The translations under genes were made by a program, and so were the position numbers. The notes below the pieces were generated by a model. It was not told the origin of the DNA and ran no database searches. It saw nothing but the letters and a program-made list of their open reading frames with translations. Source: Rhizodiscina lignyota (Eukaryota > Ascomycota > Dothideomycetes > Aulographales > Rhizodiscinaceae). From it: a stretch of DNA of 64,000 bases. Shown here piece after piece: positions 20,589 to 57,160 of this stretch. Numbering within the stretch: position 1 is the first letter of the stretch; each line of letters begins with the position of its first letter. The stretch is from the NCBI GenBank assembly GCA_010015805.1, contig ML978127.1:558001-622000 (forward strand), written 5' to 3'.

Positions 20589-22074
20589 TTAACCGCTCAG
20601 TGGTGCAACACGCGCACTCATTGATTGGATGGGGAGGTCTCCATCAATGGCCCTCGCTGATTGCATCGGAATCCTGGAAGACATGTTATCGAGTGCGGGA
20701 GACGTGGATCGATCCGCACGAGGCTTCGGAGCCTGCAAGAACGTGCGGTCAGGGGACCTCGGGCTCCGTGGCGAGTTGGCCAGTACTTCAATAACGGAAT
20801 CCCTCTTCGAGTTAACCTTCTCTTGCGATGGGAGGTTTTGGTTGAAGCCACAGTCCGCCGCAACACGCTCGATGGACTTGAAATATTTGACCGTCTTGAC
20901 CTATCGACGCATAAGTGAGCGATTGCTCATGTAATGAGAGCATTCATTGTCATAACGGCTTCGTCTTACCTGGAGCTCCATGGTTGCATCTTCGTCGACT
21001 ACTATCAGTGCATGTTGGTGCATCTGAAGGCTCGATAGTGTCCACATGTGATTAACACCTGCGCAAGATGAGCATGTTAGTATGGAGACTGAGGCTTTAC
21101 AATGTGCATTGCAGGACTGCTTACCGCATTCGATTGTCTTCTGCAGAGCAAGGGCCTTGTGGGTGCCCGTGATTATTATCACAACTTCGCGAGCCTGAGA
21201 TATTTCGTCAGTGTGGCTTGCTCGTGGATTCATTCCGAATCGGGTAAGTGTAAGCGCAGTAAGATCCAGATTTGGGTGAATAATATTCACAGATCAAACT
21301 TTAAAGGCGCGCTACTTGGAGAAATTGCAGCTCGAGAATCCTTGATGTAAGACGAGACAATACTTACATCAAGCACCGTTTGGACGCCGACTGTCAGAGC
21401 CATTCTTGGAACCTGGGCCAGGTCGTTATTGAAGAATCTGGAGTTGGCAACGATAGTATCGTATGCCAGCGTCTTCACTCTCGTACGCGACTTCAAGCTG
21501 GATCCGGGCTCATTGAAAGCGATGTGGCCATCAGGTCCGATGCCACCAAGGAACAGCTCAATTCCGCCGGCCTGCTTAATCTTCTCCTCATACGCGATGC
21601 ACTCGGACTCAAGATCGGGAGCGTTGCCGTTCAAGATGTTTACGTTCTCAGGGTCGATGTCGATGTGTGAGAAGAAGTTCTTGTACATGAAGCTGTGGTA
21701 CGATTCGGGATGCTCTTCAGGCAGGCCGACATATTCGTCCATGTTGAAGGTAATGACATCCTTGAAGCTAATATCTCCCTTCTTGTGTCGCTCTACGAGG
21801 TGCTTGTAGATCAACATCGGGCTGCTGCCCGTTGGCAGGCCCAGCACGAAGGGCTTTTGCGGTGTCGGCGCAAATGCATGGATTCTGTCTACGAGGTGTG
21901 AGTTACAGAATCTGATGGACTGCAATCGATTCAAGATTGATTGGAGTGCCGACCTATGATATAGTCTGCAACATAGTTGGAGGCGATTTGAGGCTCGTCA
22001 CGAATGATCAAGCGCCTGTTTCAATAATTAGAGTGAGCTTGGGCAACTGTGAGTTTGCATGTGAATGCGTACAT
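20589..22074 (-). CDS. dam1: Glucosamine-6-phosphate deaminase (NagB family)
   Basis: Six exons on the minus strand: 22074-22073, 22015-21954, 21888-21368, 21194-21125, 21058-20970 and 20900-20589; 351 residues. The enzyme converts glucosamine-6-P to fructose-6-P and ammonia. GLPTGSSP binds the sugar phosphate. NMDEYVGL supplies D72, and [16 protein letters not shown] supplies D141, H143 and E148, exactly the positions of the E. coli NagB catalytic residues when translation starts as modelled. Exon 1 contributes only AT of the start codon: AT|GTACGC...GAAACAG|GCGCTTG gives ATG CGC TTG (MRLIIRDEP). The C-terminal ~70 residues beyond the core (KYFKS onward) are disordered. It is the leftmost gene of the GlcNAc cluster. 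Confidence 0.92.
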
Positions 22075-23391
22075 GGTGGAAGGCTCGAGGGCGGATATCT
22101 GGAGGGTGACTTGAGAGATTTCAGAGTTATCGGCTTAATTGAAAGTAACGAAGAGAGTAGGATTTGAGGTACTGAGGTATTTGGAAGCTAAAGAGGTTTG
22201 GAGATCACGAGAAATTATTTCGGAGGGTCGCTGGCAATAACGTCACACTGCCGCCAACCCAAGAGCTTCGTGAAGGGTCTCTCACGCTTCTGCCGGGTAC
22301 CAGCGGCTTCCAACGCAACGCTTACCACTGACCAATGATTCTTGACAGCGAGAGCATTCAGTGCTACCCCATCATTCTGGCACGATGGCACGACACAGCT
22401 ACCTTTCTTCGGAGGCTCGAAGCCGAGCAGCTGACACCTTAACGCGGGGACTCGAGCTTCCACAGCTCGGCGGCCAAGCTTCTAAGGGTCCCCGAAGCTC
22501 TCCACGGAATTGAGATCTGATTTGGTGGGTCAGACTAACCTCCCTCTGCGCCTCGCCGTACAAAGGCCATCCCTTCGAGGTGTCGTCGAGGGCATAAAAT
22601 TAACTCGGCGTTCATAGGGGCACTGCTTACCCTGGCAATTAACCCGGCGTGCAACGCCCGTATTCGGAGAGCGCTTGAGACGAGACGGTGCCATATCGAT
22701 GCTACTGTTTGAGCGGGGATGGTAAGTATCTGATAATCGATATCAAAGTCAAGAGGCAGAAGTACCACCGGGCAAATACATACATGATACATAGCTATCT
22801 TTACGAGGCGCCAGAAGGGGACGCTACTATCGGGAGCGGCAAGGTTTCCTAGGGTCGATTACCACGCGCCGCCCTGCTCGATGTAACGTTTCCAACGAAA
22901 CGTCCAATCAGCAGTCTGTTTGCTAACGGGGAAATCTGACCCTTGTACGCGAAGTGGCCTGTGGGTTGAAGACATTTTGCATGCGGTTCATCGATAAGCT
23001 CTATGATTTTGCTCCTTTACTGGATGTCTTGAACGTCGCACGCGGCGTAGCATTGTGCCATCTTCACTCACCCTACGTGTACGGTTATCAGGCCCCATCT
23101 TTTCTGCTCTTTGATTGCGACTCTTCTGCAGCTCGTCGGTAGCCTGCAGCACGCGACAGCCTCAAGAGCTGGTCCTTGCTTGTGCGGAGGTGTGGCTATC
23201 CAAACCTTCGGGATCCTCCAACGTTGAAATAGTTAAAGCTGCCCACTGCAACTCTACGACGTCCTCTGAAGACCTTCCACCCGTGCACGATCGGTTTGCA
23301 GTTTTGGATCTGCGATCTGCGTTGTCATTGAGTATTGTGCTGTTCGGTTAAACGTTTCACGACACAGCCAAACTTTTTCTTACTCGCCACC
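22075..23391. promoter_or_regulatory. Divergent upstream region of deaminase and transporter genes
   Basis: A 1.3-kb spacer between the head-to-head starts of the deaminase and the MFS transporter genes; a shared regulatory region for two cluster genes is likely. Short open frames inside it are not convincing. Confidence 0.5.
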
Positions 23392-25294
23392 ATGGCGGAG
23401 AAGTCTGGCCCTGCACCAGAGGTTGAGCCTCACTTGGACGAGTCTCAAACACTCGGACAGGAAGAATCTGGAGATGCTGTAAGACCGAGGAGATGGATAT
23501 ATCGGCCACTGAAGATTGGGCCTCTGAGGATACCCTACTATGCTAGCCCTCAGGTCCGCACCCTCCAAACTCCCATAACGCTCTGAACTGACAAGCCTTC
23601 AGGTGCAAATTGTGATCCTGGCCTTTATTGTATGTCTTTTCCACTTTTTTTCAGCCAAAGATGCGTTTTTGAGCTGTCCAGACATTGTCACTGGCATCGC
23701 CAGTCTCGATTCTATGAAGAGCTAGGAGGCTTACTCAAATGTAGTGCTTTATGTGCCCGGGCATGTTCAACGCCGTCAATGGCATGGGAGGTGGAGGTTT
23801 GCTAGGTAAAGACATCTGCGCCCCAAAAGTTCGCCAACCAGGACTAACATCCTTGCTTGAAGACCACAAAGTCTCCACAGACGCGAACGTCGGTGTTTAT
23901 TCAACATTTGCCGTGATCGGGTTCTTCGCAGGAACGTTCACGAACAGGCTCGGTATTAAGGTTTGTTCATGGCCATATATGGTGAATTGGGATTCTGGGT
24001 TAAAGTCCTAATGTTTCACAGACCGCACTTTGCTTTGGCGGTATCGGCTACAGCGTCTACATCTCCTCGTACCTCTGCTACAAGCACACCCAGAATTACG
24101 GCTACTCCGTCTTTTCTGGTGTCCTCCTGGGTGTCTGCGCGGGCCTGCTATGGTGCGGACAGGGAGCCATCATGATGTCGTACCCGAACGAGAGCTCGAA
24201 GGGCAAATACATTGCTTGGTTCTGGATGATCTTCAACCTGGGCGCCGTCGTCGGCGGCTTGATTGACCTTGGCCAGAACATTCATGTGACGACTAAGCAG
24301 ACTGTCAGCGACGGCACTTACATCGCATTTATGGTTTTGTCGGTCATTGGAGCTTTGCTCTCACTCACACTCGTTAATGCCAAGGACGTTATCCGCGAGG
24401 ATGGATCCAAGGTTATCCTGATGAAGAATCCGACGTGGCAGACCGAACTCTGGGGTCTCGTCGAGACCTTCAAGACCGATCCATACATCGTGTTCTTGTT
24501 CCCAATGTTCTTCGCTTCAAACTGGTTCTATACGTATCACTTCAACGACTACAACGGCGCCATCTTCAACACCCGCACTACGGCACTCAACAATGTGCTG
24601 TACTATCTCATGCAAATTGTCGCAGCCTTCATTTTCGGTTATATCCTCGATCTCGAGAACATCCGCCGAACCACTCGTGCGAGGGGTGTGTGGGTGGTGC
24701 TCTTCGTTCTGACTATGGCGATTTGGGGAGGTGGATATTCGTTCCAGAGAACCTACAACCGAAACCAAGTCAACCAGGTCGTCGCAAACCCGGATGATCC
24801 ACTGGCTAAAACACTGATTTACGATTGGAGTGAGAGCAGATACATTGGACCAATGTTCTTGTACATGTTCTATGGCTTCTATGACGCTGCGTGGCAGACC
24901 TCGGTCTACTGGTGAGTGTAATCTTCTTTGAGGTCAAGATGTACAATTACTCATAGAGTCTAGGTTGATGGGCGCTCTCACCAACAACGGCCGCAAACTC
25001 GCCAACTTTGCAGGTTTTTACAAGGGCATCCAATCTGCTGGCGCAGCTATCATCTGGCGTCTCGATGGCATCGGTATCCCGTACTGGAACGTCTTCGGCT
25101 CCACCTGGGGTCTGCTCGGCGGCTCACTGCTAATCGCGCTCCCTGTCATCCTTATGAAAGTCCGCGATCACGTGCCGCTTGAAGACGATCTCAAGTTCTC
25201 CGATGAGACCTTTGACGACGTCGCAGCGAAGCAAGATAGGAAGCTTGAGAACCCGAGTGTCGATTTGGGCAATCCCGAAGTGGAGAAGGAGTAA
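23392..25294 (+). CDS. ngt1: UNC93-type MFS transporter, probable GlcNAc permease
   Basis: Six exons, 23392-23553, 23603-23629, 23745-23805, 23863-23960, 24022-24911 and 24964-25294, give 522 residues; the start is in CACCATGG. About 11-12 hydrophobic segments are visible, for example VQIVILAFICFMCPGMFNA, VFSGVLLGVCAGLLWCGQGA and GLLGGSLLIALPVILM. The N- and C-termini are hydrophilic and acidic. MCPGMFNAVNGMGGGG and LLWCGQGAIMMSYPNE are typical of fungal UNC-93-like (DUF895) transporters. Assignment to GlcNAc uptake rests on position between deaminase, kinase and regulator genes, not on substrate residues. The 27-nt second exon is small but needed for the first membrane helix. Confidence 0.85.
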
Positions 25295-28228
25295 GAAGCT
25301 GATGGGGGATGTGTGAGCTTTTCTGGGATGATGATTTTCAATTGCAAAGTGCACTTGGGAATGGAATTTCTTTTTTTTTGGATACCGTCGTAACCGCAAT
25401 ACCAGATCGGCTTTGGCATTGTAAAGCGAGGATGGCGCCTTTACTTTTGCTCATACTCTGATAACACTTGCTCAAGAAGCTAATGAACACCCACCTTCCA
25501 AGAAAGACATGGCGCACCTCATGTTGCATATGTTCTATTTCTCAAAGGCTAACGTGAACAACAAGGATACAGTAAATGATAATCCAGCGTCAGAATTATC
25601 GCACGACAATTACGACACCCCTCAGAGCCCCATACACGCCATGCAAACAGCGACGAAGACGCAATGGTAGACACATCGGCGGCTGCGCTGGTGGTGATTG
25701 CGCTGAACAGCCTGGGCCGAACCAAATGCCGACCGCCCATTGATGGCACAGTAGCATTGCCCCGACCTAGGAGCCGCTTCAAGGATACAAGAATGTGTAT
25801 ATCACATGAAGGTTGGCTCCCAGGCAGGTTCGCGGGAATATGTGCAAGTTGACTAGAGTGTTGAGGGGCAACGATTGAGATCTCAAGGCATCTTGGGCAC
25901 AGACAGTGGGGAAAACGATCAACACAGTTTCATGAGAGACCTCATCCATGTTTGGAGCCGCAATGTCCTTACAGAATGGTACGGTCGTCACCGCTGGGTG
26001 AAACCCGGATACTATGGTACCGCCTCGGACTACAGGAAGATTGAATTTCTTCCTTCAAGCCGCGAATACAACGCTTAAAGGAGGCTAGGCCTTCGATAAC
26101 GACGCCGTAGTTAAAAGACCAATTCTAGACATACAGTAATCAGAACTACCAAACGCAATGCTTTGCTCTGCGTAGAGAATATGCGTTCCTCGGATGTAGA
26201 GGATGGTGCAGACGCCAAGAGTGGATCACTCTCTTCCTAGTGCCCGAGCAGGCCGACATGTAAACCGTTTAATAAACGTCTGGTGAGGTTGAGACAAGGT
26301 CCGATAGTGCGATGCACCGGCTGACTCGCCCGCTTACACGAATGCAATGATCGAGTCACCATGTACCGCCATCATAACTTAAGCTCGACCAGGCCGGAGC
26401 GTCGCGGGTCGCTCACAAGTGGTCATGAGGAAGTGGAAGGCACGAAGTGCATCAAATGCAGAAAACAGGTTTGGTAACGAGAATGGAAGCTGACATTGAC
26501 GACTTTTGGCGCAACCGCAGCGGTGTAACCACATCTAGACTGAAGTCTACCCCGCAAGCGACTCGAAGCGACTCAAAACATGATCGTGAGTGGGTGGCAG
26601 TCTATTTGTGGCTGCCTCGCGACTCAACTGGGAAATGCTACTGTGTCGTGAGAGCCGCCGCCAGCGGCACGCCGAGAAGCAAATACGGGACAGGAGTAAC
26701 CGTAGCACCATAGAAATGAACAATGTGGGACTGTGTGGATGAAGCAATAGTCCGAAGAATAATGATACCTCCTCGATTTGCACCGAGATGTGCAGGATTT
26801 CTGGATATACGTGAAGCTTCATGTAGAGTAAGCGCCGGATAATTGGAAAGTGCACTTGCAACTGAGGGCCGAACGGCGGATTCAGCCACAGATTGACGCT
26901 GCAAAACAAGCTGATATCGCGGCTCCGCACAGAGAGTCTCGGTCTCACCGCGAGGGATACAAAGCTACATGGCAGGTGACTTGCAGCGGCAAATTGGAAT
27001 TGGAAGCTCAACGTCGTCCGGTCTCAGGCATCGCAGTCAGACTGCAATGGAGCTGATCCTGCTTAGAAGAGTTGTCTTCACGTTACACTGGCGTCAAAGT
27101 GTGCGTGTCCTCATGCTGTGCAATCCACTCGAGGAACAGGTTGCGGATCGACGTGCCGCCTCCAACATTCGCGCTGTCTGGCGTCGAGCTCTCCACACCG
27201 TTGCATGTGGCTGTCCGGCGCCTTTACGAGGCGTGAACGCAGAGCGGGCAACGGGCCGCGGGCCACAGGCCACACGTGGGCTTCGAGAGAGCGGGCGGGC
27301 AGTAGTCCTACTTATGTGCCTAGCTGGGTCATGGCGAGACGCTCCGCATGCGGTGGAGCAGCGGTATGAAGCTGGCTGAAGACGCAGTCGAATGGAGCGT
27401 CGTGAATTTGAGGCAGCCGGCAGCCGCTTGGCCTGCTTCCAGTTAGAGCAGTTGATATGCAAAGGCAGAGGCAGGCGATCACCGGAATCATGCCAAATGG
27501 GCGAGTGGCCTAGCTGATCGAAAGGGAGCATAGCGTTGTAGCTTGGAGTTACATACGCACCCTCACGCAGCCCTGCGGCCCTGAGCCCAACAGGAGGGGT
27601 GTCGAGGGGTGGAAATAGCGCGGGCAACACGTTCGATCCTGCGAGCACGCGGCTTGCTCGTCCAGAGCGCCATCGGCCCCTGCGCGCTCGTTATATGGAG
27701 CCCAAATCTGCGTAAGATAATCCCGGTATTGTGCATCCAAACCTCACCACAACCACCACCACCGACCCACCAACATTACAGCCGCCTACCCCCGCTGCTG
27801 GATGCGGATGAAACGTTCCTTTCTCCAGCCTCCAGCTCGTCTGGCTTTGGGCTAGCATTTGATATTGCTCGCCCCCGTGTTGCAGCCATGCAGAATAGCG
27901 AAATCGGACGAATCCTTGGGCTATTGCTACCAGCTTCGCCGTATTCCGCCCTGACCTACCTTGCGGTGCACATTCGTTACAGGGCCATCCGCCTCCATTG
28001 CTAACGCCTGCCGCTGTACCTCGATCTGAGACCACGTTACACACCCTTGGGCCGACTCCTGAAACCCGTGGCCATATACATCGACACCCAGTTCGTCCAC
28101 GCGACCTCTTTCAGATCTTCGATATCCATATCAGCTTCAGATATACTTGGTTTCAACCTCTGCGACTTGAAACTTGAATCACGCCGGCCGCTCCACCAAA
28201 CCCCCGACCCCTCCCGCCGTCAGTCTAC
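25295..28228. other. 2.9-kb intergenic region within the cluster
   Basis: Frames up to 184 codons exist on both strands in the GC-rich part (27.0-28.0 kb), but they overlap each other and match nothing I know. The stretch just before 28229 is the pyrimidine-rich leader of the hexokinase gene, and a CAACCACCACCACC microsatellite lies near 27.75 kb. No gene is supported. Confidence 0.45.
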
Positions 28229-29967
28229 ATGTTGGACTTCTGGCAGGGCTTCCTCGCGGCATTGGGATCGCTCATCATGCTACCCTCTGTCGCGAAGACA
28301 ATTCTCCCTTCCATACCTTCCGCGAAGAAGCTCTACAATGTAGTCATCACAAGCGACCGGACGATGGACGAATTCCTGGCGGAGGTCAAACGGACGTTCG
28401 AAGCCCCGCTTCAACTTTCAGCGCTGCTCGACATCTCGGCGAAGCTAAAGGCGCAGTACAAACAGAGACTCTTGGAGAGCGATGCACCATGCATGCTACC
28501 TTCCTATAATCATACATTACCGACAGGTGAAGAGCGGGGAACATATTTGGCGCTGGACGTGGGTGGTTCAACATTTCGCGTTGCGCTGGTGGAGCTGAAA
28601 GGGAAGGATCTGGGCGAGAAGGGCATGGAGATTGTGAAGATGGTTTCATACAAGATAGACAACTCGATCACGGCGTTAAAAGGAAGACTATTCTTTGATT
28701 GGATGGCGGAGAAGATAGAGCAAACGTTGGCGGAGCCGGAAGTACAATCACATCGCGGTTCGAAGGTACTACCTATGGGATTAGCTTGGTCCTTTCCGGT
28801 TGAGTATGTATGCGCCAGAAGAGAGTTATGGCGGCCGCAATACTAACAAAAGCATAGGCAAACGTCCCCTCGAAGCGGCAAATTAAAGAGGATGGGAAAG
28901 GGTTTTGGAGCAGATCACGGGTGTGTGGACATCGACCTATGCGAGCTGATCATGGATTCATGTCGAAAGCGGGTTAGTATCCGCCTTTCAACTTATACGA
29001 ATGGCTTACTAACAAACGTAGAACTTGCAAGTGACTCTCGACGCAATCGTCAATGACGGTACTGCAACGTTACTCTCGCGAGCATATCGCGATCCAGCAA
29101 CCCGACTAGCGCTCATTCTGGGTACCGGAACTAACGCTGCGATACACCTGCCTGTGACTGCTTTGTCACAGGAGAAATTTGGACAACGACCCCAGAGCTG
29201 GCATGACGAAGCGACGCACGTACTTGTGAACACGGAAATGAGTATGTTTGGAAAGGGCATCCACAAGGTATCCAAATGGGACGATGACCTGAATGAGCAT
29301 CATCAAAAAAAGGATTACCAGCCGTTTGAACATCTTATTTCTGGCAGATACCTGGGTGAAATCGTACGCCTCATCGTTGTGGAAGCGGTCGCGGACGCTG
29401 GTCTCTTCGAAGGCAGGTTACCGGATGGCATGGACATTCCATACAACTTCTATACTGATCTGATGGCACAACTGGAAGCGTGAGTCACTCCACCTTTATG
29501 CGACATTTCATTCTGATACTAACTCTGAAACCGACAGTGATGAGACTCCAAGTCTTTCTAAATCAATGTATGCCCTTCAGAAAGCTCACCCCTTACCAGC
29601 TTCACATCCTTACACGAGAACGGATGTCGTCTATCTTCGGCAAATTTGCCAGCTGGTCTCTCAACGTGCTGCCGCCTACCTCGCCTCAGGAGTTCATGCG
29701 CTCTGGAGTTTACGACTGGACGAAGAAGGACTCTCGCCAGATGCAGAAGACCACGTGACGATTGGGTGCAATGGTTCTGTCATTGAAAAGTATCCAGGCT
29801 TCCGGGAACGAGCTCAAGCGTACCTGGACGAACTTTGCGTGAGAAGTGGGGGCAGGAGAGGCGGCATCGTACTCGAGATTGCGATCGAAAGCGCAATCTA
29901 CGGCGCTGCTGTTGCAGTATGTGCGCTAGAAGGGCAAGACGCGGGAGTTGATGGGAAGGTGGGTTGA
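28229..29967 (+). CDS. hxk3: Divergent hexokinase, probable GlcNAc kinase
   Basis: Four exons, 28229-28803, 28858-28972, 29022-29479 and 29538-29967 (introns 54, 49 and 58 nt), give 525 residues of the eukaryotic hexokinase fold. ATP phosphate-1 motif is LALDVGGSTFRVALVEL (108-124, canonical GGTNFRV). The sugar-binding loop reads LAWSFPVEQ (canonical FTFSFPVEQ). Phosphate-2 is LILGTGTNAAI (canonical GTGCNAAY). ISGRYLGEIVRL is the usual adenosine-side helix. VTIGCNGSVIEKYPGFRERAQ replaces the typical IGADGSVY. A hydrophobic N-terminal stretch (LDFWQGFLAALGSLIMLPSV) is unlike glucose hexokinases. The changes in sugar-contact motifs and the cluster position favour phosphorylation of GlcNAc at O6. 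Confidence 0.88.
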
Positions 29968-32152
29968 CGTGGGCATGGCGTGCGACGACTACGACATTAC
30001 ACCGCATTTTTGGGCGTTTGAGCTGGAGAACTAAAGCAGGCGGCATTTGTCCAGGCTTCTCCGATAGAAGTGATATGGGGATTTTGGGGCGTACAACATC
30101 CGCACTTGCATACTGTAGCACGGGTGGGTAATCTCATGACCATGTTGGATTGAAACGGAGCGGATTGGATTTGAGAGCATGTTGGCCTCTCGCAAGAGAG
30201 AGCGACTGGAAGTACCTGTACAGCTACGTGGAAGACAAAAATCTGACCTGCCGATGGGGTGGGCATAATGACTGGCATATAGCGCTCGCGGGACATGGGA
30301 TGATCGACGACGTTACATCGCAGGCTTCAAGAAAAAGTCACCGAGTACTTTTCTCGATTTAGATGTGGCACTGCCGGGCGTTTCCAAGCATCTGCAAAAC
30401 GATTAGCAAAAGCATTTCGATTGCACCTGTAATGATCGACAGGTCGTAATCGCAAGAGATGCTGTGGGCAGACTAGTGCTAGTATTAAAACCTCTGCCAA
30501 TATTGAGTGTTAGACCGCCTCACCGGTGACATCCATCCACGTCAATGTAGGAATCTGCCGGAACAGCGTCTTTTAAGTAAAGGATGAGGCCATCGTTTGT
30601 GAATGCAGCGTCTCCACGAATCGGAAGCTGCGTGGGCAACGTTTGCCCTTTGAGTCTTTGACGACCTTCCTAGACCGAGAACGGAAGCAAGGGGGAGTTG
30701 AAACGCCAGAAGGATAGCAATGGAACAGGACAAGCATATATGCATTAGCCTGATTTTTACACGCATTATACCCGGCGGTGAAATGTAAAGAGACTTTGAA
30801 GGAAATGCCAGCCCTAGCAAGGCTAACACACTAGCTGGATTCAAACACGTAGGAGACGCCGTATACAGATTCTTGAACCATATTCTCAACGTCCTAACAC
30901 GTCCTGAATCTATTTGGAAGTCATTATATAGAGATATTTCAGACAAACGCTTTCAGCAGGCGGTGGCCATTTGTGCTTCCAAATTGTATATTGTGGCTGA
31001 GGCATTCAGGGGCCAACAGCCACACGGCTACGGACAGTCCACCTGCAGTTTCAGAGGACTCATTCACCACTCTTTTTCTTCTGAGCCTACTCCAGATCAC
31101 ATTAAACTTACTAGTACTAACGTTCGATTTCCAAGTCTCTTGACCATAGCAAAATAAAGTCCGGTACGTTACGAAACTTGCTGGCCCAAGAGCTTCTTCC
31201 GCTAACGCAATGCAGTTCAAGAATGAGATCATACCAACATTTGGCGAAACATCAGCGTCCATCACGGAAAGCGGCGCATCGAAGTGGCTAGTATATCTTG
31301 ACTATCTCAAAGAGCTATCTGGAAGGACTGAAGATTCGGAATGGCGATAGAGGAGACTGAGAGTATAATGGATTTGCCTACCACTCAATGGACGACTCCT
31401 GCCTCTTCGTCCTCTGTCTCACAGAGATAACACCGGGATTCACGGAATTGACCAACTCAACACCGAGGCTTCAGGATTTTAAAGCCATAACCGAGTCACT
31501 CGATGCACAAAATCTCGGGAATGGCGAGCAAGAGTAATGGCAGTCAGTTCATCGAAGGGATGGGTTGCGATGGAGGAACCGGAGTCTCACCAAACAGCCC
31601 ACACAAACTGGGAAGCCGCAAGTGGCGATGCTCACGGTCACGGGATTCGCAGGATCCTCAGTTCGGCCCCCAACAAATGAGAGAGTCATTGACTGTGCAT
31701 CGCATTCAATTTTCAAAATCAGGCCTGTCCTCAAGAAACATTTGATCGCTACGGAGATATGTACAGCGGTAAGCGGAGGCAGCTTTGCAAACACCATACA
31801 CCAAACTTGGCAGCTCAAGGGCATTTGCGAGCGCCAGAGGTATCATAGGCCAACCACCGAATCCCAGAAGAACGATCAAGCCAACAAGATCGTTCGCGGA
31901 ATAGCCAAGGAGACCAACCTGCCCAGAGAACTGACAGGAGATTCGTCGCTTCATACCCAGGAAAACGTAAAAGATCAGAGCCAGCTGGCAGATATGCCGG
32001 CCTATACGTATGTTCGTCGCCTGCACCCAGAGGCGCCTCATTTCCAGTCAAATCGTATCTCATCTCCGCTTCCAAGTCATAGACGAGATGCGCCCTGACT
32101 ACTTACATATCCACCCCGTACACCTCTCCTCCCCTTCTCCATTCAATAGTTG
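29968..32152. other. 2.2-kb intergenic region within the cluster
   Basis: No supported gene. A minus-strand frame at 31706-32041 contains a hydrophobic run (VGLIVLLGFGGWPMIPLALA), and another frame overlaps it on the plus strand (31565-32098). Neither has splice partners or family similarity that I can recognise. Confidence 0.4.
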
Positions 32153-33943
32153 TCACGCAGGCTGATCCTCGCTAAAATACCTCTTACTCCGGCCCTTGAC
32201 TCTGTCGCTTTTAATGTCTCCTGGTACATTCATGTGATGTACCACATGCGGTCTGTAGACAGCGTCGACCGGGGGCATCCAGTCGTTCAGACTCAGCGGG
32301 AAGTACTCGTACAGCAGCTCCGCGCTCTCATCCGGGCTCGACATCAACCCTATAGAAAAGCTTGGTGGTCTCGGCATGGGCTGTACAGTCTTCTTGCCCT
32401 TGTGCGAGTCGGATGGAGACGCTGATGCCTTCTTTGCGGGCTCATCATCCGTCAGTGACAGGTTAATTGGGGCAGCAGGTGTGGAGCGAGGCGGCGGAAC
32501 ACGCGTGAGGTCGGGGCTGGATTGTGCATAACCCCCTCCTGGGCCAGCTCCTTGAGGCGAGATGACGGCATAGTCGTTCGGCAAGGCAGTCAGAGCACCA
32601 GTGTGATTGGCGCCACCAGGAATTTTCCATTCAAAAAAGTCGGGCGAAACCTGAATGTCTGAGGCATCGTATGGAAAAGCATGAGGCGGCATTTCCAGTG
32701 GGGCTGAATTTGGCTCCTGCTTCGGCATGCTGCCTACTGCGGAGCCCGCATTGGAGTTGCGTGATGGTTGGGCGGCCTGGTGGTTGTTGTTGGCATGATT
32801 GTTATTGCGATTGCGTACGCTGCCACCGGATTGCGAGATTGCAATGTCCTTGCGCGACTGGAAGTTGCGAGGAGACCGCCCGCGCACGATGATGGCGCCA
32901 GAGGTCACCTCGCAGACTGACACTTTTGCGCCGTTGGCGAGCGTGGCCATGAGTTTGAGATGAATGATGAAGTGCTGCTGCAATTCTTTTCGCCGGCCGT
33001 TGTTAGCCGTTGCGATACGGAATTGCAGACGCTTCCATGAAATGGGAAATGTAACAAAGGCCTCATCTACTTCCTGTCCATTCATGAGATCCAATGGGAT
33101 GGACGGAGGCTCCTTCTCCGTCTTGTCTTCCACTGCTGGCGCACCTGCAGCAGGAGTCTTCCAGGGAACAGAGATGATCTTAACCGAGTTTCCTTCCACC
33201 GACTCAGTGGCAGATATAGTAAGTTCTTGACTTAAGATTGGGATCTGTTCGTTCTGTTCCGTCACTATATAACGAAGACCACGAGGGAGCATTAGGGTTC
33301 CTGAGATTTGGAAGAGGTTGCGGCGGTAGCACGTCAACTCTGTCGGCTGATTCGCCGCATCTGATCCCGCCCAGGGGGACTCGGCCAGGAAGAACATGCC
33401 ATGAAGCTGCGCGGTTAGGGACAACGTTGTTCTCCGATAAGCATCTGTATCACATGCAACGATCAGCAGAGTTCGCCATAGCAGTTCTCTTGGTCTTTAT
33501 CTCAGAAATTCCATAGTTATCGCTGGTCACATCGAGTGATTTGCCCCACAATTTTCCGATAAGGGTAGAGAGTGTCACTTACAGTCCAGTATGTGGAAAG
33601 AGTAATTAGGCATGCTGAAGCTCAGAAGCTTGTGTCCGCGCTCTACGGATGGGCCCTCCATACCATTCTGATCGGGAGGCATGTGCTGATCATACTGGCT
33701 AAGGACATCGGAGAAAGGATCATCGTAGGTAGAGGGGAAACGGCGCAGTTGTGGAGGCATCTGACCGCCCATGCCATGCTGAGAGAACATGTCCTCACTG
33801 CCAGCAAACGTCTCTTGGTCAAAGTTCGAGGTGTGGTCTAGAGGTTCGAGGGGAAGCAGCCCGGTGTCCAGCGGAGCAACATTCGGCTGCTGGAGCGGGG
33901 GAGCTTGATAGCTCATGGTCAGGATATCGAAATTTCCATCCAT
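32153..33943 (-). CDS. ron1: Ndt80-like transcription factor RON1
   Basis: Exons 33943-33583 and 33444-32153 (minus strand, 138-nt intron) give 550 residues. The first exon is a Pro/Gln-rich arm. The NDT80/PhoG DNA-binding domain spans about 105-325: YAYRRTTLSLTAQLHGMFFL begins it, TCYRRNLFQISGTLMLPRG and QHFIIHLKLMATL follow, and it ends with the conserved basic RGRSPRNFQSRKD. The rest is Asn/Pro/Ser-rich, with NNNHANNNHQ. Ndt80-family proteins bind CACAAA-like elements. In Trichoderma reesei the homologue RON1 sits in and controls the GlcNAc gene cluster; the same role is inferred here from identical neighbours. The start is the ATG at 33943; an in-frame TTG upstream was ignored. Confidence 0.92.
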
Positions 33944-34954
33944 GGTGGGCAGAGGTGTCAACGCGCCGCTTGAGAAGGCAATCCGTTCGGTTGCGACGTC
34001 AAGGGCGCCTCGTATTAGCGACGACTACTTCGCCGTGTATATGCGACGGCCGTGCCGTGATGGTGATGGTGGTGAATAGCGGATGTGCGCCTCGGACTGG
34101 TGTGGTCGGAGGAGGAGGGAGGACATGAGAAGCGCACGAGGGATAGGCGCGGCGCTCGTGGCGAGAGTTCAGCGGCGGCGCTGGGTCTGGAGAGGTGCTC
34201 GATTGCTTCGTGTGGTCGCGCTGTGCAACCTGTTTCTGCAGGTGGCCCGGAGAGGTAGGGTGATCGAGGTCAGCGTCTCGTGCGCCTTTTCGGAGATGAG
34301 GCAGTGTTGGAGCGGACGAGCGGTCTGCGCAACGAGCGGCCCACAGTCGGGCAGAGGCATTAAATAGGACAACAGAGGCAGCGCACTGAGCAGAGCGGAA
34401 GGAACGAGGTTGGAGGGAGTGGGCGTCCGTGGCGTCTCAAAGCAGTAGGCTTCTGGAAGAAAGGAAGACTTGGCGGCTCTCTGCCACTAGGCGCTGCTAG
34501 ACGCTTTCGACCTCGTGTGCCGCGCACGGGCCTTTGGGAGGACTTTGATCATGTACACCCCACCACCGCATTTGCTCCGTCGGAAGAGCGTCGCTCCATC
34601 TGCGCGCTCCTGTCGCCGCTGATGTCGCATTCAGGGCGGTCCTCTGTGCGGAAAAAAATGTTGCGATCATGCTTAACACATCCAATTCATCGTACATAGT
34701 CAATCTACACTGTCCGACAAGAATGGCGGCGCGCTCGCCCGCCCGCGACGAACAGGCAGTACCCAGATAAGTCTGACAGCGCCGTCCATGGACCCCGGAC
34801 ACCGCTATGGAGAAAGGCCCGGGATAACGTGCAAACAAGCAAATGAGAAGAGACGAAGCGCCGCAAGCCTGCCAAGAACGCCGGCCAATGACGCAGTTTG
34901 ACCGCCGTAACTCCATTATGTGGTGTGTCCGCCGCGGCCCCCAAAACAGACGAC
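33944..34954. promoter_or_regulatory. Upstream region of ron1 / downstream of the GH3 gene
   Basis: One kilobase of GC-rich leader with no coding frame that I trust. It must hold the ron1 promoter. Confidence 0.45.
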
Positions 34955-37900
34955 TCACGAAACATGATAAGATCTCCCAGCCGTGAACTTCTTCTCGACT
35001 GCAGCGCCCTTACCCAGCAGGCTGGTACCTTCACCGTACACCGACGGCTGCAGCATGGTAAACGTGCTCGCGTCGCATGACACCTCTTCAAAATCGCTCA
35101 CCACATCGAAGCCGATCGACTTCAGAACATCGACGTTGCCGTCACCGTCCATCTGCCGAAGCATAAGTCAGCAAGATCTGAAACTCTGATTCGGGAAGGA
35201 CTGCCTACGTAGTCCAAGTACACCGCGTTAGCGCCCTGCTTCTTGATCTGCTTCATTCCAAGCAGTATCAAACCCTGTAGTAGCGTAGAGTAGTCTGCAA
35301 CACTAGGAGAAATAACTGGCGAGGATATCCCGCCCGTCATTTCGTCCAAGTCTCTCATTGCAGGCACAAACTCGGCAAGCCGACTCTGCTGGTTGTACAA
35401 TACCACCGTCCCGACAATTGCTTTGTCGTCCGGTCTCTTGGCTCGTATTATTCCACATGCGGACGGATCGGAAAGTGCGAGTTTGTAAACTTCAAGGAGA
35501 CCCTGGCGATTGCTCGTCTTGACGTGGTCCAAAATCGGCCCAGCATAATCCCAGCCGTACACGAGATCAAACTCTGCAGCACCGCCCGCGCTTTGAAGCG
35601 ACTTTGCCATGCCTTCAGGAGTCGACCAGGAAGACAAGTTGCGGGCAACCATGCTATAGATAGTCCGGGATAGGGCGGTGTTCCAACCCAAATTAGCGAA
35701 CCATGCACGGAGCCGCCGTTTTTCGACCGTATGGGGCATCGGGATGCCGAGATAAATGTTCGGAAGACGGGTTCCAAGCGAGAATCGCTTTGCTTCTTCT
35801 CTCTGCAGCAGCGTTCGGATTGCGCGGTTGTGCAGCGAGTGTCCTATGGACAGTTTCCTCCTCGACGGGTCCACGAACAATGCACCAATTGTGCCGGTAC
35901 CAGTGGTCTTGAAGAAGTAGGTCGAACAGAAGCCATACAAGGCGTGCGTACTGCTGTTCCTCACGACAAAATGCGCCTCGATGACTTCCTGATTGTGCAG
36001 CAGGAATGTGTTAGAAGAAGCGCCTGACAATTCCGATCTCTGCGAAGGAGGCATGTCGTCAACAATCAATTTGATCAGGTTGTCCAGGGCATTTGCGTCT
36101 CGCTCCTCGTTGAAGGCTTCGACAAGCCAGTGCTGCCGTGTCTGATGCAACTTCTGGCTTTCGCTTATGGTACCCGGTAGAACACCAGTCGGTGTCAATT
36201 CTCCGTAGAGAACCTTGACCAGCGAGTACAGTGCCGTTTCCGTAAAGTCGTACGTGCAGATGTAAGTCCCTATCGAGGAGTCGAAAGCAAAGTCGTAAGG
36301 TGAACTAACAGACACGACAATGAGTGGTTTCTCCTTCTTCTCACCACCAGCAGTAAACTGCATGTTGCAGATCATGGCCACGTGCTTGGTGAAACCTTGT
36401 TGATAGATGTTGCGATTCGCATCCGCGGTGACGATAATCACTGCACTTGCTCTGTTGATGAGGGTCTCGTGCATTGGCCGCACGCCATTCGCCGTGTAGG
36501 AAGTGTGAAGGACACGTCCATTCCGCTGCCTTGCTAACGAGCGACCAAGTTCCCTGAATACGCGTTCCCCACTCATAACAGAAGAGGTCCGCTCCCAGGC
36601 CGGCTCGGGCGAGTGAGCGTTGGCAGATTCCGATATAGCTCGTGATGCAGCTGAGGCAGCGAGAGGCTTGACTAGAGGTGTTAAAAGGCAGATCTCTTCC
36701 TCCGGCTCCACTAAATTAGAGAGTGGAATTAAATGAGTCTTATCGCGAACTAAGGTGATTGAGCTGTTGTAGGCCTTCGTGGATAGAGCTGTGTGAGACG
36801 GCTGTAGTTGAGATAAGAGGCTAATTCCAGGAGGATTGAGCGCTTGCTCCCAGGACGTGTATCCGGCTTTCATTTTAAGTACTCTTCGGAGGGAGTTGCG
36901 TACTCTGGCCATCGATATCGTGCCGTTTTCCAAGCCAACTTTAAGTCCTTTGATGGCTTCCTGCTGCGCGGAGAAGGCGCGACAGAGCAAGACAATATCA
37001 CAACCCGCGTTAACGGCCATGACTGTACCACCTCCGACGCCGATATTGTGGCTCAGTGCCTCCATTTCCAGACATTCAGAAACAACGACACCATCAAAGT
37101 TGAGATCATGGCGTAAAAGGCCATCAACCACTTGCTCCGAGAGGCAGGCGTGCATTACGTTGAGTCCAACTGAAGACATCGCGACACCGCCGACCATAAT
37201 GGAGTCCAGTCCTTGGTTAATGGCATTGCGGAAGGGCACTAAAGCTGAGAGGCTGAGCTGTTCTAATGATTCTGTAATAATTGGAACGTCGAGTGCGGAG
37301 CCGAGGAACTCTAGATTGCCATATGATGGGAAATGCTTTCCAAGTGTGGCAACACCAGCTTCCTTATAACCTTTCATAAATGCAATTCCGTATGCAGAGA
37401 CCTGGTGCGGATCGTCGCCGGCCGTCCGGACACCCATTTGCTGATTCCTGGCATTGGCAAGGACGTCGAGACAAGGTCCCATGATGAGATTTAGACCACA
37501 TGCTGCAATTTCTTGCGCCGTAGCCTTTGCTACCTCAAACGCCAGGTCGGTAGAGCCAGTGGCAGCGATACCCATGGCGCTTGGGTATTGCCGTATGTAA
37601 ATTTCGTCGAACAGGCTGTTGACGCCGCCATTTTCTTGATCTGTCCCAATAAGCAAAGGAACTGGATGTCCGGCATCATAAGCGATCTTCTGAAGCTCAT
37701 AGCAAAGCTTTGTAGTTTCTTCAGCAGCTGTTACAAGTTAATATCAGCATCACATTCAGGTCAGCACGTGGACGGCTCTACATTTGAGGTTCTTGGCGAC
37801 GAGAAGTATCGAGCCGATGTGATGGTTCTCGATCAAGGTTTTAATCTGCGGCGTGACAGTTGGGCCATCGAAGCCCATCATAAATAGCTGGCCCTGAGGT

Positions 37901-38107
37901 AGTATTTCGCGTTAGTCTCGTAGCAAATATCGCTTGGATCCACAGCAAGAGACCACTCGGAGTGCATACCAACGTCCTGCAGCATTACCCACAACAGTCA
38001 GCTTAGCGTCGCAAAAGCAAGGACGCGAGAATCAGGAAAACGCCAGCTTCGACTTGCCTATCCAGATCCTTCCACACGGGGTCCTGCGGATCAGTTTTTT
38101 CCTCCAT
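34955..38107 (-). CDS. nag3: GH3 beta-N-acetylglucosaminidase fused to GNAT acetyltransferase
   Basis: Five exons on the minus strand, 38107-38058, 37976-37970, 37893-37782, 37727-35209 and 35152-34955, give 961 residues. The first intron has a GC donor (ATAG|GCAAGT) and the second exon is 7 nt, producing WKDLDRTLGQLFMMGFDG. Residues 15-590 are a GH3 domain: TDQENGG (85-91), MGPCLDVLANARNQQMG, KHFPSYG (187-193) and VVVSECLEMEAL (271-282). Bacterial NagZ enzymes have KHFPGHG (general acid-base His) and SDD (nucleophile) at the last two sites. Residues 590-961 are a GNAT module with GALFVDPSRRKLSIGHSL (671-688), the acetyl-CoA loop. No signal peptide: likely intracellular, acting on imported chitobiose or similar. 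The GH3-GNAT fusion is known in fungi. Confidence 0.9.
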
Positions 38108-38653
38108 GTCGGCGAGTGGCCAGCAGGCCGAGCGCGGCGCCTGCGGACGTTCGTCTAAAGCGTGCAGCTGGCGAGGATCGGGAAATGGGTCGACGGAAAG
38201 AGAAGTCAGGACGGGCCAAGCATGCGACGTCAAAAGCGAGAGGTTACATACTCCAGCTCCTCCATGTGGAGCACTGAAGTAGTATCTCGGCAGCAGCCGA
38301 GAGATACGAGGTACTTCGGTACATCGCTCCTCACTTATGTCAGCGTTGGCGTTGCTTTTGGGATAGGGTTGCAGCGTCGAGCATAGCGTGCGCTTCCCGC
38401 CGCTCATTCCCGACCTACGTATCACTGGCGGCCATGTGCCGGAGCGAGTGGCAGGAAAAAGCTTCCTGCTGCTTTGCAGCTCTGATGTAATGCCAAATAA
38501 GCTCTCTGCATACGCCTCTCGCCTAGATATAGGGAAGCATGCCCCAAGGTAAGGCAGAAGATATGGGTGCAGGCGCTCATCGACCTTTCGTCGACCTTTC
38601 ATCATCTTGCATTCCCTAACTTTCCTTCAACATCACCCTCCTTCTCTAGCACA
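38108..38653. promoter_or_regulatory. Divergent nag3/dac1 promoter with paired hairpins
   Basis: The start codons of nag3 and dac1 are 546 bases apart, head to head. Midway are two adjacent inverted repeats: CTCGGC/GCCGAG (38286-38291 and 38296-38301, nested in TATCTC/GAGATA) and GTAC-TTCG-GTAC (38311-38322). A TATA-like TAGATATAGG lies at about 38523, and a pyrimidine-rich stretch precedes the dac1 ATG. Co-regulation of the two genes is likely. Confidence 0.6.
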
Positions 38654-40030
38654 ATGCCTTCTGCAATTAGAGATCTCTACTCTACTCCAAATCATAGCCC
38701 TCCGAGAAGCGGCATCACCAAATTTACCAACTGCCGAGTGCTCCGAGGAAATGAACTCGTGCAAGACGATCTTTGGATAAGCTCGCGGACGGGGAAAGTT
38801 CTAGATGGCCAGAAGATCTTTTTCGAGTACGGAACGAGTGCAGACAGAGTAATCGATCTCGGTGGCCGAATCATCTCTCCTGGTCTCATCGATGTCCAAC
38901 TCAATGGCGGCTTCGGCTTCGACTTCTCGGTCGTACCTGACGACATCTCCGCATACGCAAAAGGCCTTCAGCGGCTGAACAAGAGTCTTATCGAAACAGG
39001 CGTGACTTCGTACCTTCCGACGCTTACGAGTCAACGAAGCGAGGTCTATCACAAGGTCCTTCCTTTCCTTCGACCATCCTCTCACGACAGAGACGCGCTG
39101 TCTGGCGCAGAGTCTCTCGGGGCACACTGCGAAGGTCCTTTCCTCAGCCCAACGAAGAATGGCATTCACAAGGAGTCCGTCCTTCGCGTCCCTTCAAATG
39201 GATTCCTGGACCTCGAGGATTGCTACGGCGCTGACAACCTTAAATCATCCTCTACTCCCATCAAACTCGTCACTCTCGCCCCGGAACAAGCTGGTGCCCT
39301 CGATGCGATCAAGGAACTCAGACGACGTGGGATAATCGTCTCAATTGGACACTCAGAAGCTACTTTTGAGGAAGCAACCAAAGCGATCGATGCCGGAGCT
39401 GACATGATTACGCACCTCTTCAACGCCATGAGGCCTCTGCATCACCGCAACCCAGGCATCTTCGGTGTGCTTGGGACTAGTTCACCTAGTGCTTCTCCAA
39501 CCATTGGCGCGAGAGACTCTGCTCGTAGCCGAAGCAAGAAACCGTTCTTTGGTATTATCGCCGACGGCATCCACCTTCATACTACCGCCGTAACGATTGC
39601 CTGGGCCGCTCATCCATCCGGCTGCATCCTCGTCACAGATGCAACGAGCCCCGCCGGCTTGCCTGATGGTGTTTACGACTGGACGAACGGCGAGCGTATC
39701 CGTAAGACGGGACCTCTGCTTACGCTGGAGGGCACTGATGGCAAGATCGCGGGTAGCAGCATCACTTTGATCGGATGCGTAAACAATTTCCTCAACTGGA
39801 CTGGTACCAGTGTGCCTCACGCACTGGGAACGGTGACGAGCACGCCGGCGAAGATGCTGGGCTTAGAACAGGCCAAAGGCAATCTGATACCTGGGGCTGA
39901 TGCGGACTTGGTCGTGCTGGATGAGGTGGTGGACGAGGAGGGGAAGAAGACTCTGAAGGTGGAGCAGGTTTGGAAATTCGGGATGTTGGTCCACGATACC
40001 AATGTTGATGGAGGTGCCGAGGAGGAATGA
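38654..40030 (+). CDS. dac1: N-acetylglucosamine-6-phosphate deacetylase
   Basis: Intronless, 458 residues from the ATG at 38654. The enzyme hydrolyses GlcNAc-6-P to glucosamine-6-P and acetate. Amidohydrolase-fold landmarks are all present: ISPGLIDVQLNGGFGFDF, the metal-binding GAHCEGPF (H158, E160), SIGHSEATFEEA (H233), ITHLFNAMRPLHHR (H254), IIADGIHLH (H307) and the catalytic Asp in LVTDATSPAG (D329). The C-terminal strand ADLVVLDE belongs to the small beta-sandwich. Length is slightly above that of bacterial NagA because of a Ser-rich insert at about 275-295. Its product feeds the deaminase 16 kb away. Confidence 0.95.
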   Translation: MPSAIRDLYSTPNHSPPRSGITKFTNCRVLRGNELVQDDLWISSRTGKVLDGQKIFFEYGTSADRVIDLGGRIISPGLIDVQLNGGFGFDFSVVPDDISAYAKGLQRLNKSLIETGVTSYLPTLTSQRSEVYHKVLPFLRPSSHDRDALSGAESLGAHCEGPFLSPTKNGIHKESVLRVPSNGFLDLEDCYGADNLKSSSTPIKLVTLAPEQAGALDAIKELRRRGIIVSIGHSEATFEEATKAIDAGADMITHLFNAMRPLHHRNPGIFGVLGTSSPSASPTIGARDSARSRSKKPFFGIIADGIHLHTTAVTIAWAAHPSGCILVTDATSPAGLPDGVYDWTNGERIRKTGPLLTLEGTDGKIAGSSITLIGCVNNFLNWTGTSVPHALGTVTSTPAKMLGLEQAKGNLIPGADADLVVLDEVVDEEGKKTLKVEQVWKFGMLVHDTNVDGGAEEE

Positions 40031-54764: not shown

Positions 54765-57160
54765 TCAGACGTCTGTCCCGCTGCTATGGAATGCGGCGCA
54801 GACCTGTGCGTACTGATGGGTGAGCTCCAGGACGTGCTGAGGAAGGCTTGTTGCTTGAACGATGCTCCGCACTTTGACGGCGCCTTCTTCTTCGATCAGC
54901 CGCCGTATTGTGTAGAGCATGTCCGGAGAAAACTGCAAGATTGTGTTAGGACAATTCTGTTCCAGGATATAGGAGTGGACTGGGAGGCTTACCTCAGAAT
55001 ACCACCGATATTGCCAGGTAACCAGCCGGATGAGAGCACCAAGGATCATCCTCACTTCACCATGCTTTTCGTACATCTTGAGTACACCTCTCATGGCCTT
55101 GGGACTGAATCGGATGCCTAAGCAGGCTTGATACGCCTCCACAGCCTCTTCCACATGGTGCAATCGGTCAGCCAACTCGCCCAGTATCTCCCACTCTTCA
55201 GCACTCTTCTTATAGACGAGCTGCTGTTGGCGATACTGCGCCATTTCCGTTCTCCAGATAGTATACACGCGCAAGTCTTCGTAGAGCACCATGAATAAGT
55301 TGTCCAGCCAGCGCTCACAGAGGCGCTTGTTGCGGAAAGGTGTAAAGTTGGAACTGTGCTCCTCGTTTGGCTCGTCGCTCCCGGCATGTACCACTTCTGA
55401 CGCTATGGTGTGCGCGGGCTTCTCAAGGTTTGGGGTTTTCGGTCTTGTTGACAAATTTTGTTCTGATGGTCCCCCGTTGAGGGCAGCTTCTCCTTGCGCT
55501 TTCTCCTTCGGCTCATCGGCAGAGTCTTCGTGGCCATTCGGTTGCGGGCCAGGACTCGGTGGTAAAGCCGTGGTGCTGACATTTCTACTATGCGTGGCTG
55601 AGTGTGTGAGCGTCTGCTTCTCGTGGCGATACTCCTCCTCCATAACGAAGACTTGACTTCTTATCTTGAGAAGCTGGTCCCAACCTATCTTCTTGGTAAT
55701 GTCGGTCAGTATGGTGTATGCTTTCAAGAAGGTTCCTTTGAAGTTCGCGGCGTGTAGCTTGCGCAATTGCGCATGCACCATGTCCATATCTCCTATTTGA
55801 GCATCGTCGATTTCGTCGCATATTGTTTCGGGCAGTATCGGCAAAGACACACGAGCGGGCTCTGGCATGCGCGGCGCATCCTTGTCTTGGTACGTGAACA
55901 TCGGACATGAGTTCAGTGTCAGAAGCGCAAGATCCCATTGCTCCAAGCTGACGTAGATTTCAGCCAGCCTCGCCCATGTCCCAAACTCGCTTGGAGCCGA
56001 AACTACGCTGCGCTTGGCGATCTCCAAGGCCAAGTCGCCACGACCTTTGCTGTCGCAGAACTCTGCCTGGCAATCCAATAACGAGTAGTCCATAGGGAGT
56101 TCTTGTATTGCCTCGTGGAGAAGTTGGACAGCCTTGACTTCTTCATCCGCAGCAATGTACACTCTTGCGAGTAGCGACGATATTTCGGGGTCCCTTGTGC
56201 GCAACTTTTCGAACAAGTTTATCCCTGAAGCGTAGCGCCCTGTTGTTCGGATATATTCGAGGAGGCCGGTGGTGAGATGGTTGGATACGAGGTTTGGTAC
56301 TTGGATTTCAGGATCTGAGCCGAGTTGCCAACCTACGTAGAGCTTAGTGTCTTGCCAGGATCCAACTTAGACGGACAGGAATATACCATTGAAGAAAAGA
56401 CGCTCCGCAGCCTCGAGGAACTTGTGCTCCGCCTCTGTCGTGGTTATTGGGTTGAACCTCCGCACGCCAACTATTTTCTTGATCGTGTCGCCTGATCCGT
56501 TGTCTGCGTAGGAGTATGCGCGCAAGACGCTGCATAGGTAAGTTTCGAGCCATAGGTCGTCGGATGCCACGAGCTTTTCGCCTCGTTCGTTGATGCAGTA
56601 CGCTTCGACGCCGCCAGGTATTGCTACCTGGACTCTCATGTCCAGTCGAGAGAAAGCATTATAGCAACTTGGGTGGTCAGCTTCCTCGCTCATATTCTAA
56701 GAGCTGTTCGCATACCAGAACAGACCAGAGACCACCTTGTGTGTCTTGTCATTGGGGCCAAAGGTGAGAGTATTGATGTAGGCTGCTAAGCTGGCCGAGG
56801 AGGACGCGTCGATGCCGGTGACATGGTGATATACACCAATCTGGGTCTATAAGCAATTGTTCCAATACGCGCCTGCTCTTGGCTCGGGGCTGCTCCATAC
56901 CTGCTTGTTCTGCGACTTGATGGGGGACTTAATAAGGTGCACGAGGTCTGGCGGCCCCAATTCCCGGAGCCCTTGGAGAGTATCCGTCCGGGCATCTACG
57001 ACCGTCTGGATTTCATCCTCGAAAATCCTGCGGACTATACATTAGTCGCGAGTCTACAAGCTTCAAAAAGTGGCTGTTCGAGGGCGAGACTCGAGGCGCA
57101 CAGGGCAGGCCTGATGCAAGTAGGAAGGACTTACTCCGGCACGGCCGGGGAGATGACCAT
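54765..57160 (-). CDS. Exomer cargo adaptor (ChAPs: Bch1/Bud7/Chs6 family)
   Basis: Six exons on the minus strand, 57160-57135, 57027-56901, 56846-56716, 56667-56387, 56332-54993 and 54932-54765, give 690 residues. With Chs5 and Arf1, ChAPs build the exomer coat that carries chitin synthase Chs3-type cargo from the trans-Golgi to the plasma membrane. The ChAPs signature is clear: LRELGPPDLVHLIKSP near the N-terminus, YHHVTGIDASSSASLAAYIN, GLFCCYNAFSRLDMRVQVAI, then TPR-like helices (YIAADEEVKAVQLLHEAIQ, FGTWARLAEIYVSLEQWDLA). A Ser/Pro/Glu-rich loop lies at about 385-455. The last intron (60 nt) is 3n and stop-free. The tiny first exon (26 nt) was chosen because it joins in frame at a consensus donor. 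Confidence 0.9.

Follow-up and report, generated by a model that had tools for sequence, protein, structure and literature searches.

In the Ascomycota, a gene cluster for the use of N-acetylglucosamine (GlcNAc) has been described, with 18 species in one figure and the regulator named RON1 (Kappel et al., PMC4950302). In Trichoderma reesei, RON1 is reported as the key activator of the cluster, and single knockouts all grow worse on GlcNAc (PMC4950302). Histoplasma, Blastomyces and A. fumigatus are published cases in which the transporter gene ngt1 lies near the catabolic genes (PMC3778022). For Candida albicans Ngs1, which binds GlcNAc, the description is that of a sensor that acts as an acetyltransferase and not as a hydrolase (PMC5063960); similar grounds led to the renaming of T. 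reesei nag3 as ngs1 (PMC12176254). Here, we analyzed 64,000 nucleotides of the Rhizodiscina lignyota genome (the window, C7:558001-622000; the genome comprises 33.4 Mb in 29 contigs), which carry six GlcNAc genes, dam1, ngt1, hxk3, ron1, ngs1 and dac1, within one block. With a probability of about 0.9, we read this block as the conserved GlcNAc utilization cluster of filamentous ascomycetes, with RON1 and NGS1 as its local regulators. It is a further case of the cluster already described by Kappel et al. (PMC4950302), and a first-pass annotation, which had proposed the same system as the RON1 cluster of T. reesei in another fungal class, agrees with that paper.

Six linked genes and their models

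The gene models, domains, residues and linkage were read directly from the DNA. All six genes have intact models and stand consecutively in one 19.5-kb block (20589-40030), at the places given by the first-pass annotation. Five of them (dam1, ngt1, hxk3, ron1 and ngs1) were spliced by hand, and their frames and splice sites were checked; 17 of the 18 introns are GT-AG, the exception being the first ngs1 intron (GC-AG). Scanning of the main exons with Pfam backs the identity of each gene. Like the Pezizomycotina GlcNAc cluster, the block holds intact and linked hxk3, dac1 and dam1, and an Ndt80-domain regulator gene and nag3/ngs1 lie inside it.

The glucosamine-6-phosphate deaminase gene dam1 (20589-22074, minus strand, six exons, 351 amino acids) has the enzyme of the same function, 1ne7, as the best solved-structure match of its product (E 1.1e-115). 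An intron interrupts its start codon, leaving AT at 22073-22074 and G at 22015, and the model differs from the deposited R. lignyota protein P0121, which is partial and begins RRLIIR, solely in the first residue (M for R). Such a split start may be common to relatives and may misguide annotation. A clean MRLIIR-type start was missing in 57 of the 120 DAM1 homologues listed, and in 42 of these LIIR stands slightly inside, after an odd or cut N-terminus. The divergent ngt1 (23392-25294, plus strand, six exons, 522 amino acids) encodes an MFS/UNC-93-type transporter, probably the GlcNAc importer, whose main exon matches Pfam MFS_1 and UNC-93 and which is linked to the catabolic genes, as expected of NGT1. 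Among the matches listed, its best homologue reaches 69% identity, and the named homologues are labelled UNC93-like, DUF895 or MFS proteins. A literature search turned up no paper that treats NGT1 together with UNC-93. Because no equal R. lignyota protein is among these matches, the deposited gene set of this species may lack or misbuild ngt1.

The GlcNAc-kinase-type hexokinase gene hxk3 (28229-29967, plus strand, four exons, 525 amino acids) encodes a protein that is 26-30% identical to the other hexokinases of the genome. The solved-structure matches of HXK3 are hexokinases, and its VND stretch aligns with theirs and retains the aspartate, which we take to be the catalytic residue. The gene ron1 (32153-33943, minus strand, two exons, 550 amino acids) encodes an Ndt80/PhoG-type transcription factor (PF05224, E 3e-40), for which no solved-structure relative was found at E 0.001, the best match being myelin regulatory factor at 0.27. 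A genome search found two Ndt80-type loci, one of them ron1; the other shares 24% with RON1 over 209 residues. Next follow ngs1 (nag3; 34955-38107, minus strand, five exons, 961 amino acids), which encodes a GH3-like and GNAT protein and probable GlcNAc sensor, and the GlcNAc-6-phosphate deacetylase gene dac1 (38654-40030, plus strand), a single exon in one open frame of 458 amino acids whose product matches the solved GlcNAc-6-phosphate deacetylase 7nut (E 4.4e-87). The two head-to-head pairs noticed at first pass are real: dam1 and ngt1 are separated by 1,317 bp (22075-23391) without a CRCAAA site, and ngs1 and dac1 by 546 bp (38108-38653).

Each gene can be given a step by analogy with its orthologues, from which the substrates, the induction and the RON1-NGS1 control step are inferred. 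NGT1 would import GlcNAc, HXK3 would phosphorylate the imported sugar, DAC1 would remove the acetyl group, and DAM1 would convert glucosamine-6-phosphate to fructose-6-phosphate and ammonium. RON1 is the predicted DNA-binding local regulator. NGS1, with a putative GlcNAc-binding GH3-like domain that has no hydrolase residues and is fused to an acetyltransferase domain, would be the other, and the two may activate the genes upon entry of GlcNAc into the cell.

The GH3-GNAT protein as a probable sensor

By Pfam, NGS1 has the layout of the sensor, an N-terminal GH3 domain and a C-terminal GNAT domain. Its gene model includes a 7-nt exon (37970-37976) after the GC-AG intron (intron/exon region 37970-38057). 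The deposited R. lignyota protein P0001 (99%) omits this exon, and the sole difference from our model is TL for Q (DRTLGQL vs DRQGQL). We compared NGS1 with the best 120 of 1,409 relatives, R. lignyota itself being among the 120, and T stands at the position of the 7-nt exon in 42 of the 52 homologues with a residue there.

The closest solved relative of NGS1 is the GH3 N-acetylglucosaminidase 4zm6. Compared with the enzymes 4zm6 and 6k5j, NGS1 has KHFPSYG...GSA in place of KHFPGHG...DSH and SECLEM in place of TDCLEM, so that Glu274 stands at the position of the nucleophile and Gly199 and Ala201 at those of the dyad, which is not the residue set of an active GH3 N-acetylglucosaminidase. In the listed homologues the dyad is missing throughout, with G at 199 in all 120 and T, A, S or Q at 201 in 58, 57, 4 and 1, respectively. 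The GlcNAc contacts are conserved: when the binding residues named in PMC5063960 were mapped onto NGS1 by motif, R157, K187 and H188 were found to be retained in all 120 homologues and D86 in 119, the remaining one having a gap there. Position 274 is variable: 84 homologues have Glu and 36 have Asp. Despite the loss of the dyad in all 120, the switch between Asp and Glu is grouped on a FastTree tree, with at least three changes. The named Asp-type rows belong mostly to the orders Mycosphaerellales and Capnodiales, plus Bathelium and a row that bears the name of the plant Quercus suber. With such natural variation at the old nucleophile, it could be tested simply whether position 274 is required for sensing.

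Because the GlcNAc-binding residues are kept and both the dyad and the Asp nucleophile are lost, and given the literature on Ngs1 and NGS1, the GH3-GNAT protein is probably best read, from its sequence, as the GlcNAc sensor NGS1 and not as a credible hexosaminidase. The name beta-N-acetylhexosaminidase, which some sources give to this gene, is therefore misleading and is corrected here. As NGS1 does not have the residues of a hydrolase, the cluster would start from GlcNAc, without an in-cluster step from chitin oligomers. Two claims of the first-pass annotation, the hexosaminidase and a complete path that leads from chitin oligomers to fructose-6-phosphate, are thus not supported.

Linkage in Dothideomycetes and alternative readings

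For the comparison of linkage, we used the best 120 rows each for NGS1, DAM1 and NGT1 homologues, of many more found, with species and contig sizes entered by hand. Equal-sized source contigs were counted as the same contig, which shows a shared contig and not tight linkage. Unnamed rows, rows with an incomplete species name (including P0124, P0132, P0140, P0177 and P0215), named rows noted in a single list, and two further strains of included species (Meristemomyces frigidus LTR85 and Elasticomyces LTR56) were left out; P0177 matches the contig size of the Friedmanniomyces NGT1 row, and Friedmanniomyces was counted as different. Among the matches listed, NGS1 and DAM shared a contig in 19 of the 23 named species, or 18 of 22 when R. 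lignyota is set aside, NGS1 and NGT1 in 17 of 21, and DAM and NGT1 in 21 of 25, and all three pairings agreed in 11 species. Some of the shared contigs are small, as in Delitschia (10,788 bases with dam1 and ngt1) and Cryomyces (29,413 bases with ngs1 and dam1). Locus tags of NGS1 and NGT1 could be compared in seven pairs. The difference is exactly 3, the value predicted by the gene order of R. lignyota, in three of them (Coniosporium, Elasticomyces LTR50 and Vermiconidia). It is 4 in NU459, 6 in Bathelium, 7 in Bogoriella and 1,608 in Oleoguttula CCFEE 6159, which has short contigs; in Neodothiora, the tags of DAM and NGT1 are consecutive. The linkage of ngs1, dam1 and ngt1, and their spacing where tags allow, recurs in other Dothideomycetes, and the arrangement is not peculiar to R. 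lignyota. That the homologues are unlinked in all close relatives does not hold for these three genes, which the comparison covered and which are linked in most of the species compared. As far as linkage goes, the suggestion that the arrangement might differ from known clusters is not supported either, as linkage of ngt1 is both published (PMC3778022) and recurrent in the class.

Several observations count against the assignment of the block to a RON1-controlled GlcNAc cluster. Contig sizes were unequal for four species in every pairing compared, and the NGS1 and DAM tags of Pseudocercospora eumusae are far apart (AC578_7572 and AC578_10057). Unequal size can reflect another strain in the sequence cluster, as in Coniosporium, where the tags are 3 apart and the sizes differ. 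Five further UNC-93-type loci were found in the genome, and the substrate of NGT1 is assigned by analogy. RON1 is a putative RON1/XprG-clade factor by its position in the cluster. Hydrolase activity is allowed as possible for the Pezizomycotina orthologues of Ngs1 (PMC5063960). Finally, the yeast Ndt80 core CRCAAA was not seen in the 3,874 bp that make up the four upstream regions (hxk3 being represented by 1 kb upstream only), where about 4.6 were expected from a background of 1.19 per kb in the window and five other genome stretches. Words common to the upstream regions (6- to 8-mers) were also not above 200 dinucleotide shuffles: there were 56 common 6-mers vs 48.3 (reached in 28 of 200 shuffles), two 7-mers vs 2.3 (135 of 200) and no 8-mers. 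Some 6-mers exceed the wider background, for example CCGCTC with 10 vs 2.2, and the shuffles give no ground for picking one. The promoter result counts against plain sites of the yeast Ndt80 type but does not count against control by RON1, whose own site may differ from that of yeast Ndt80.

The empty upstream regions, together with the inner gaps of 2.9 and 2.2 kb, would also suit six genes that are neighbors without being a co-regulated unit, with RON1 acting mainly elsewhere, like XprG in the control of starvation-induced proteases. We consider this highly improbable, as ngs1, dam1 and ngt1 remain linked in most of the Dothideomycetes compared, RON1 is reported as the key activator of the T. 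reesei cluster (PMC4950302), and its site need not be the yeast one.

The other explanation concerns NGS1, which could be a working hexosaminidase in a cluster that encodes the route from chitin oligomers to fructose-6-phosphate. The strength of its GH3 match (192 bits), an N-acetylglucosaminidase as the nearest solved relative, the name beta-N-acetylhexosaminidase given to several listed relatives, the Asp found at the nucleophile position in part of these, and the activity left open for the Pezizomycotina are what would be expected of such an enzyme. However, the dyad is absent from all 120 listed relatives, NGS1 itself has lost the nucleophile as well, its N-terminus is not signal-like by eye, and GH20 candidates are present on other contigs, which makes hydrolysis by NGS1 very unlikely. 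We therefore keep the reading of a GlcNAc utilization cluster with NGS1 as its sensor.

Related genes, borders and comparison with described clusters

The GH20 matches lie on contigs C3 and C12, and GH18 matches above the cut-off were found on C5, C9, C14 and, barely, on C7 in a part not covered by the window (203 kb); the hydrolases for oligomers and chitin are likely encoded elsewhere in the genome. A GH3 frame of 369 codons at C9:361,333-362,442, apparently secreted by eye and carrying KHFPGLG and SDAIEAGG stretches, is a candidate for a true GH3 hydrolase.

The PF01182 profile marked three loci in the genome. The one on C11 was rejected as a deaminase, as its motif reads like that of a 6-phosphogluconolactonase. 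On C8, an intact-looking but divergent second deaminase gene (dam2; 609,370-610,606, 318 amino acids) encodes a protein 64% identical to DAM1, on a long branch (0.94) and with an unsure place in the tree. A hexokinase paralogue lies 2.7 kb from it (about 604.9-606.6 kb) and is 46% identical to the hexokinase at C7:899 kb. In all, the group at 604,900-616,100 of C8 comprises the hexokinase paralogue, a zinc-cluster-like gene read by eye, dam2 and, beyond it, a second zinc-cluster-like gene, whose Pfam matches stay below the cut-off, as well as an MFS gene. With its two candidate zinc-cluster regulators, the group could tentatively be seen as another amino-sugar module, one that is not linked to the RON1 cluster and serves free glucosamine; this is rather unlikely, and the co-function of these genes is a guess. 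No literature on a fungal glucosamine module was recognized, as judged from titles and the starts of abstracts. A genome search with DAC1 gave no relative outside the window other than one on C5, and none near the C8 group. The C5 relative (2,091,474-2,092,827) is 39-41% identical in its main piece and 29-33% in its first piece; a second GlcNAc cluster around it was looked for and rejected, its neighbors being unrelated by eye.

The block is bordered by genes of other processes, with DPM3 on the left and a complex I 21-kDa gene on the right. That no gene of another pathway lies between the six holds as far as Pfam can say, since none of 30 open reading frames in or beside the gaps has a match above the curated cut-off (best E below it, 0.0077 and 0.009). 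An Rfam scan of 20,000-41,000 gave no family, and a tRNA scan of the window gave none. A ChAPs (Chs5p-Arf1p-binding) gene is located at 54768-56366, about 15 kb from the cluster; in yeast, ChAPs are tied to the export of chitin synthase. Its nearness to the GlcNAc cluster is probably chance.

In conclusion, a compact and complete GlcNAc cluster is added for a dothideomycete, and linkage of ngt1 is found to be recurrent in the class. As in T. reesei and other Ascomycota (PMC4950302), hxk3, dac1, dam1, ron1 and nag3 are clustered in R. lignyota, whereas ngt1, which lies within the cluster here, is far from it in T. reesei (PMC12176254). In Histoplasma capsulatum, NGT1 is linked both to catabolic genes and to GIT7, a GH3-GNAT gene, as here (NGT1, HXK1, DAC1, NAG1 and GIT7; PMC3778022), but four genes are spread over 75 kb there (PMC3778022), while all six stand within 19.5 kb in R. 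lignyota. C. albicans Ngs1 (PMC5063960), T. reesei NGS1 (PMC12176254) and R. lignyota NGS1, the last known from sequence, all combine GH3 and GNAT domains, keep the GlcNAc residues and have lost the dyad; the gene is outside the cluster in C. albicans (PMC5063960) and inside it in R. lignyota. In Aspergillus nidulans, xprG adjoins the nag3 orthologue, as ron1 adjoins ngs1 here, and HxkC is called the HXK3 orthologue (PMC4950302). The A. nidulans cluster is broken in two by an inversion (PMC4950302), whereas that of R. lignyota stands in one block.

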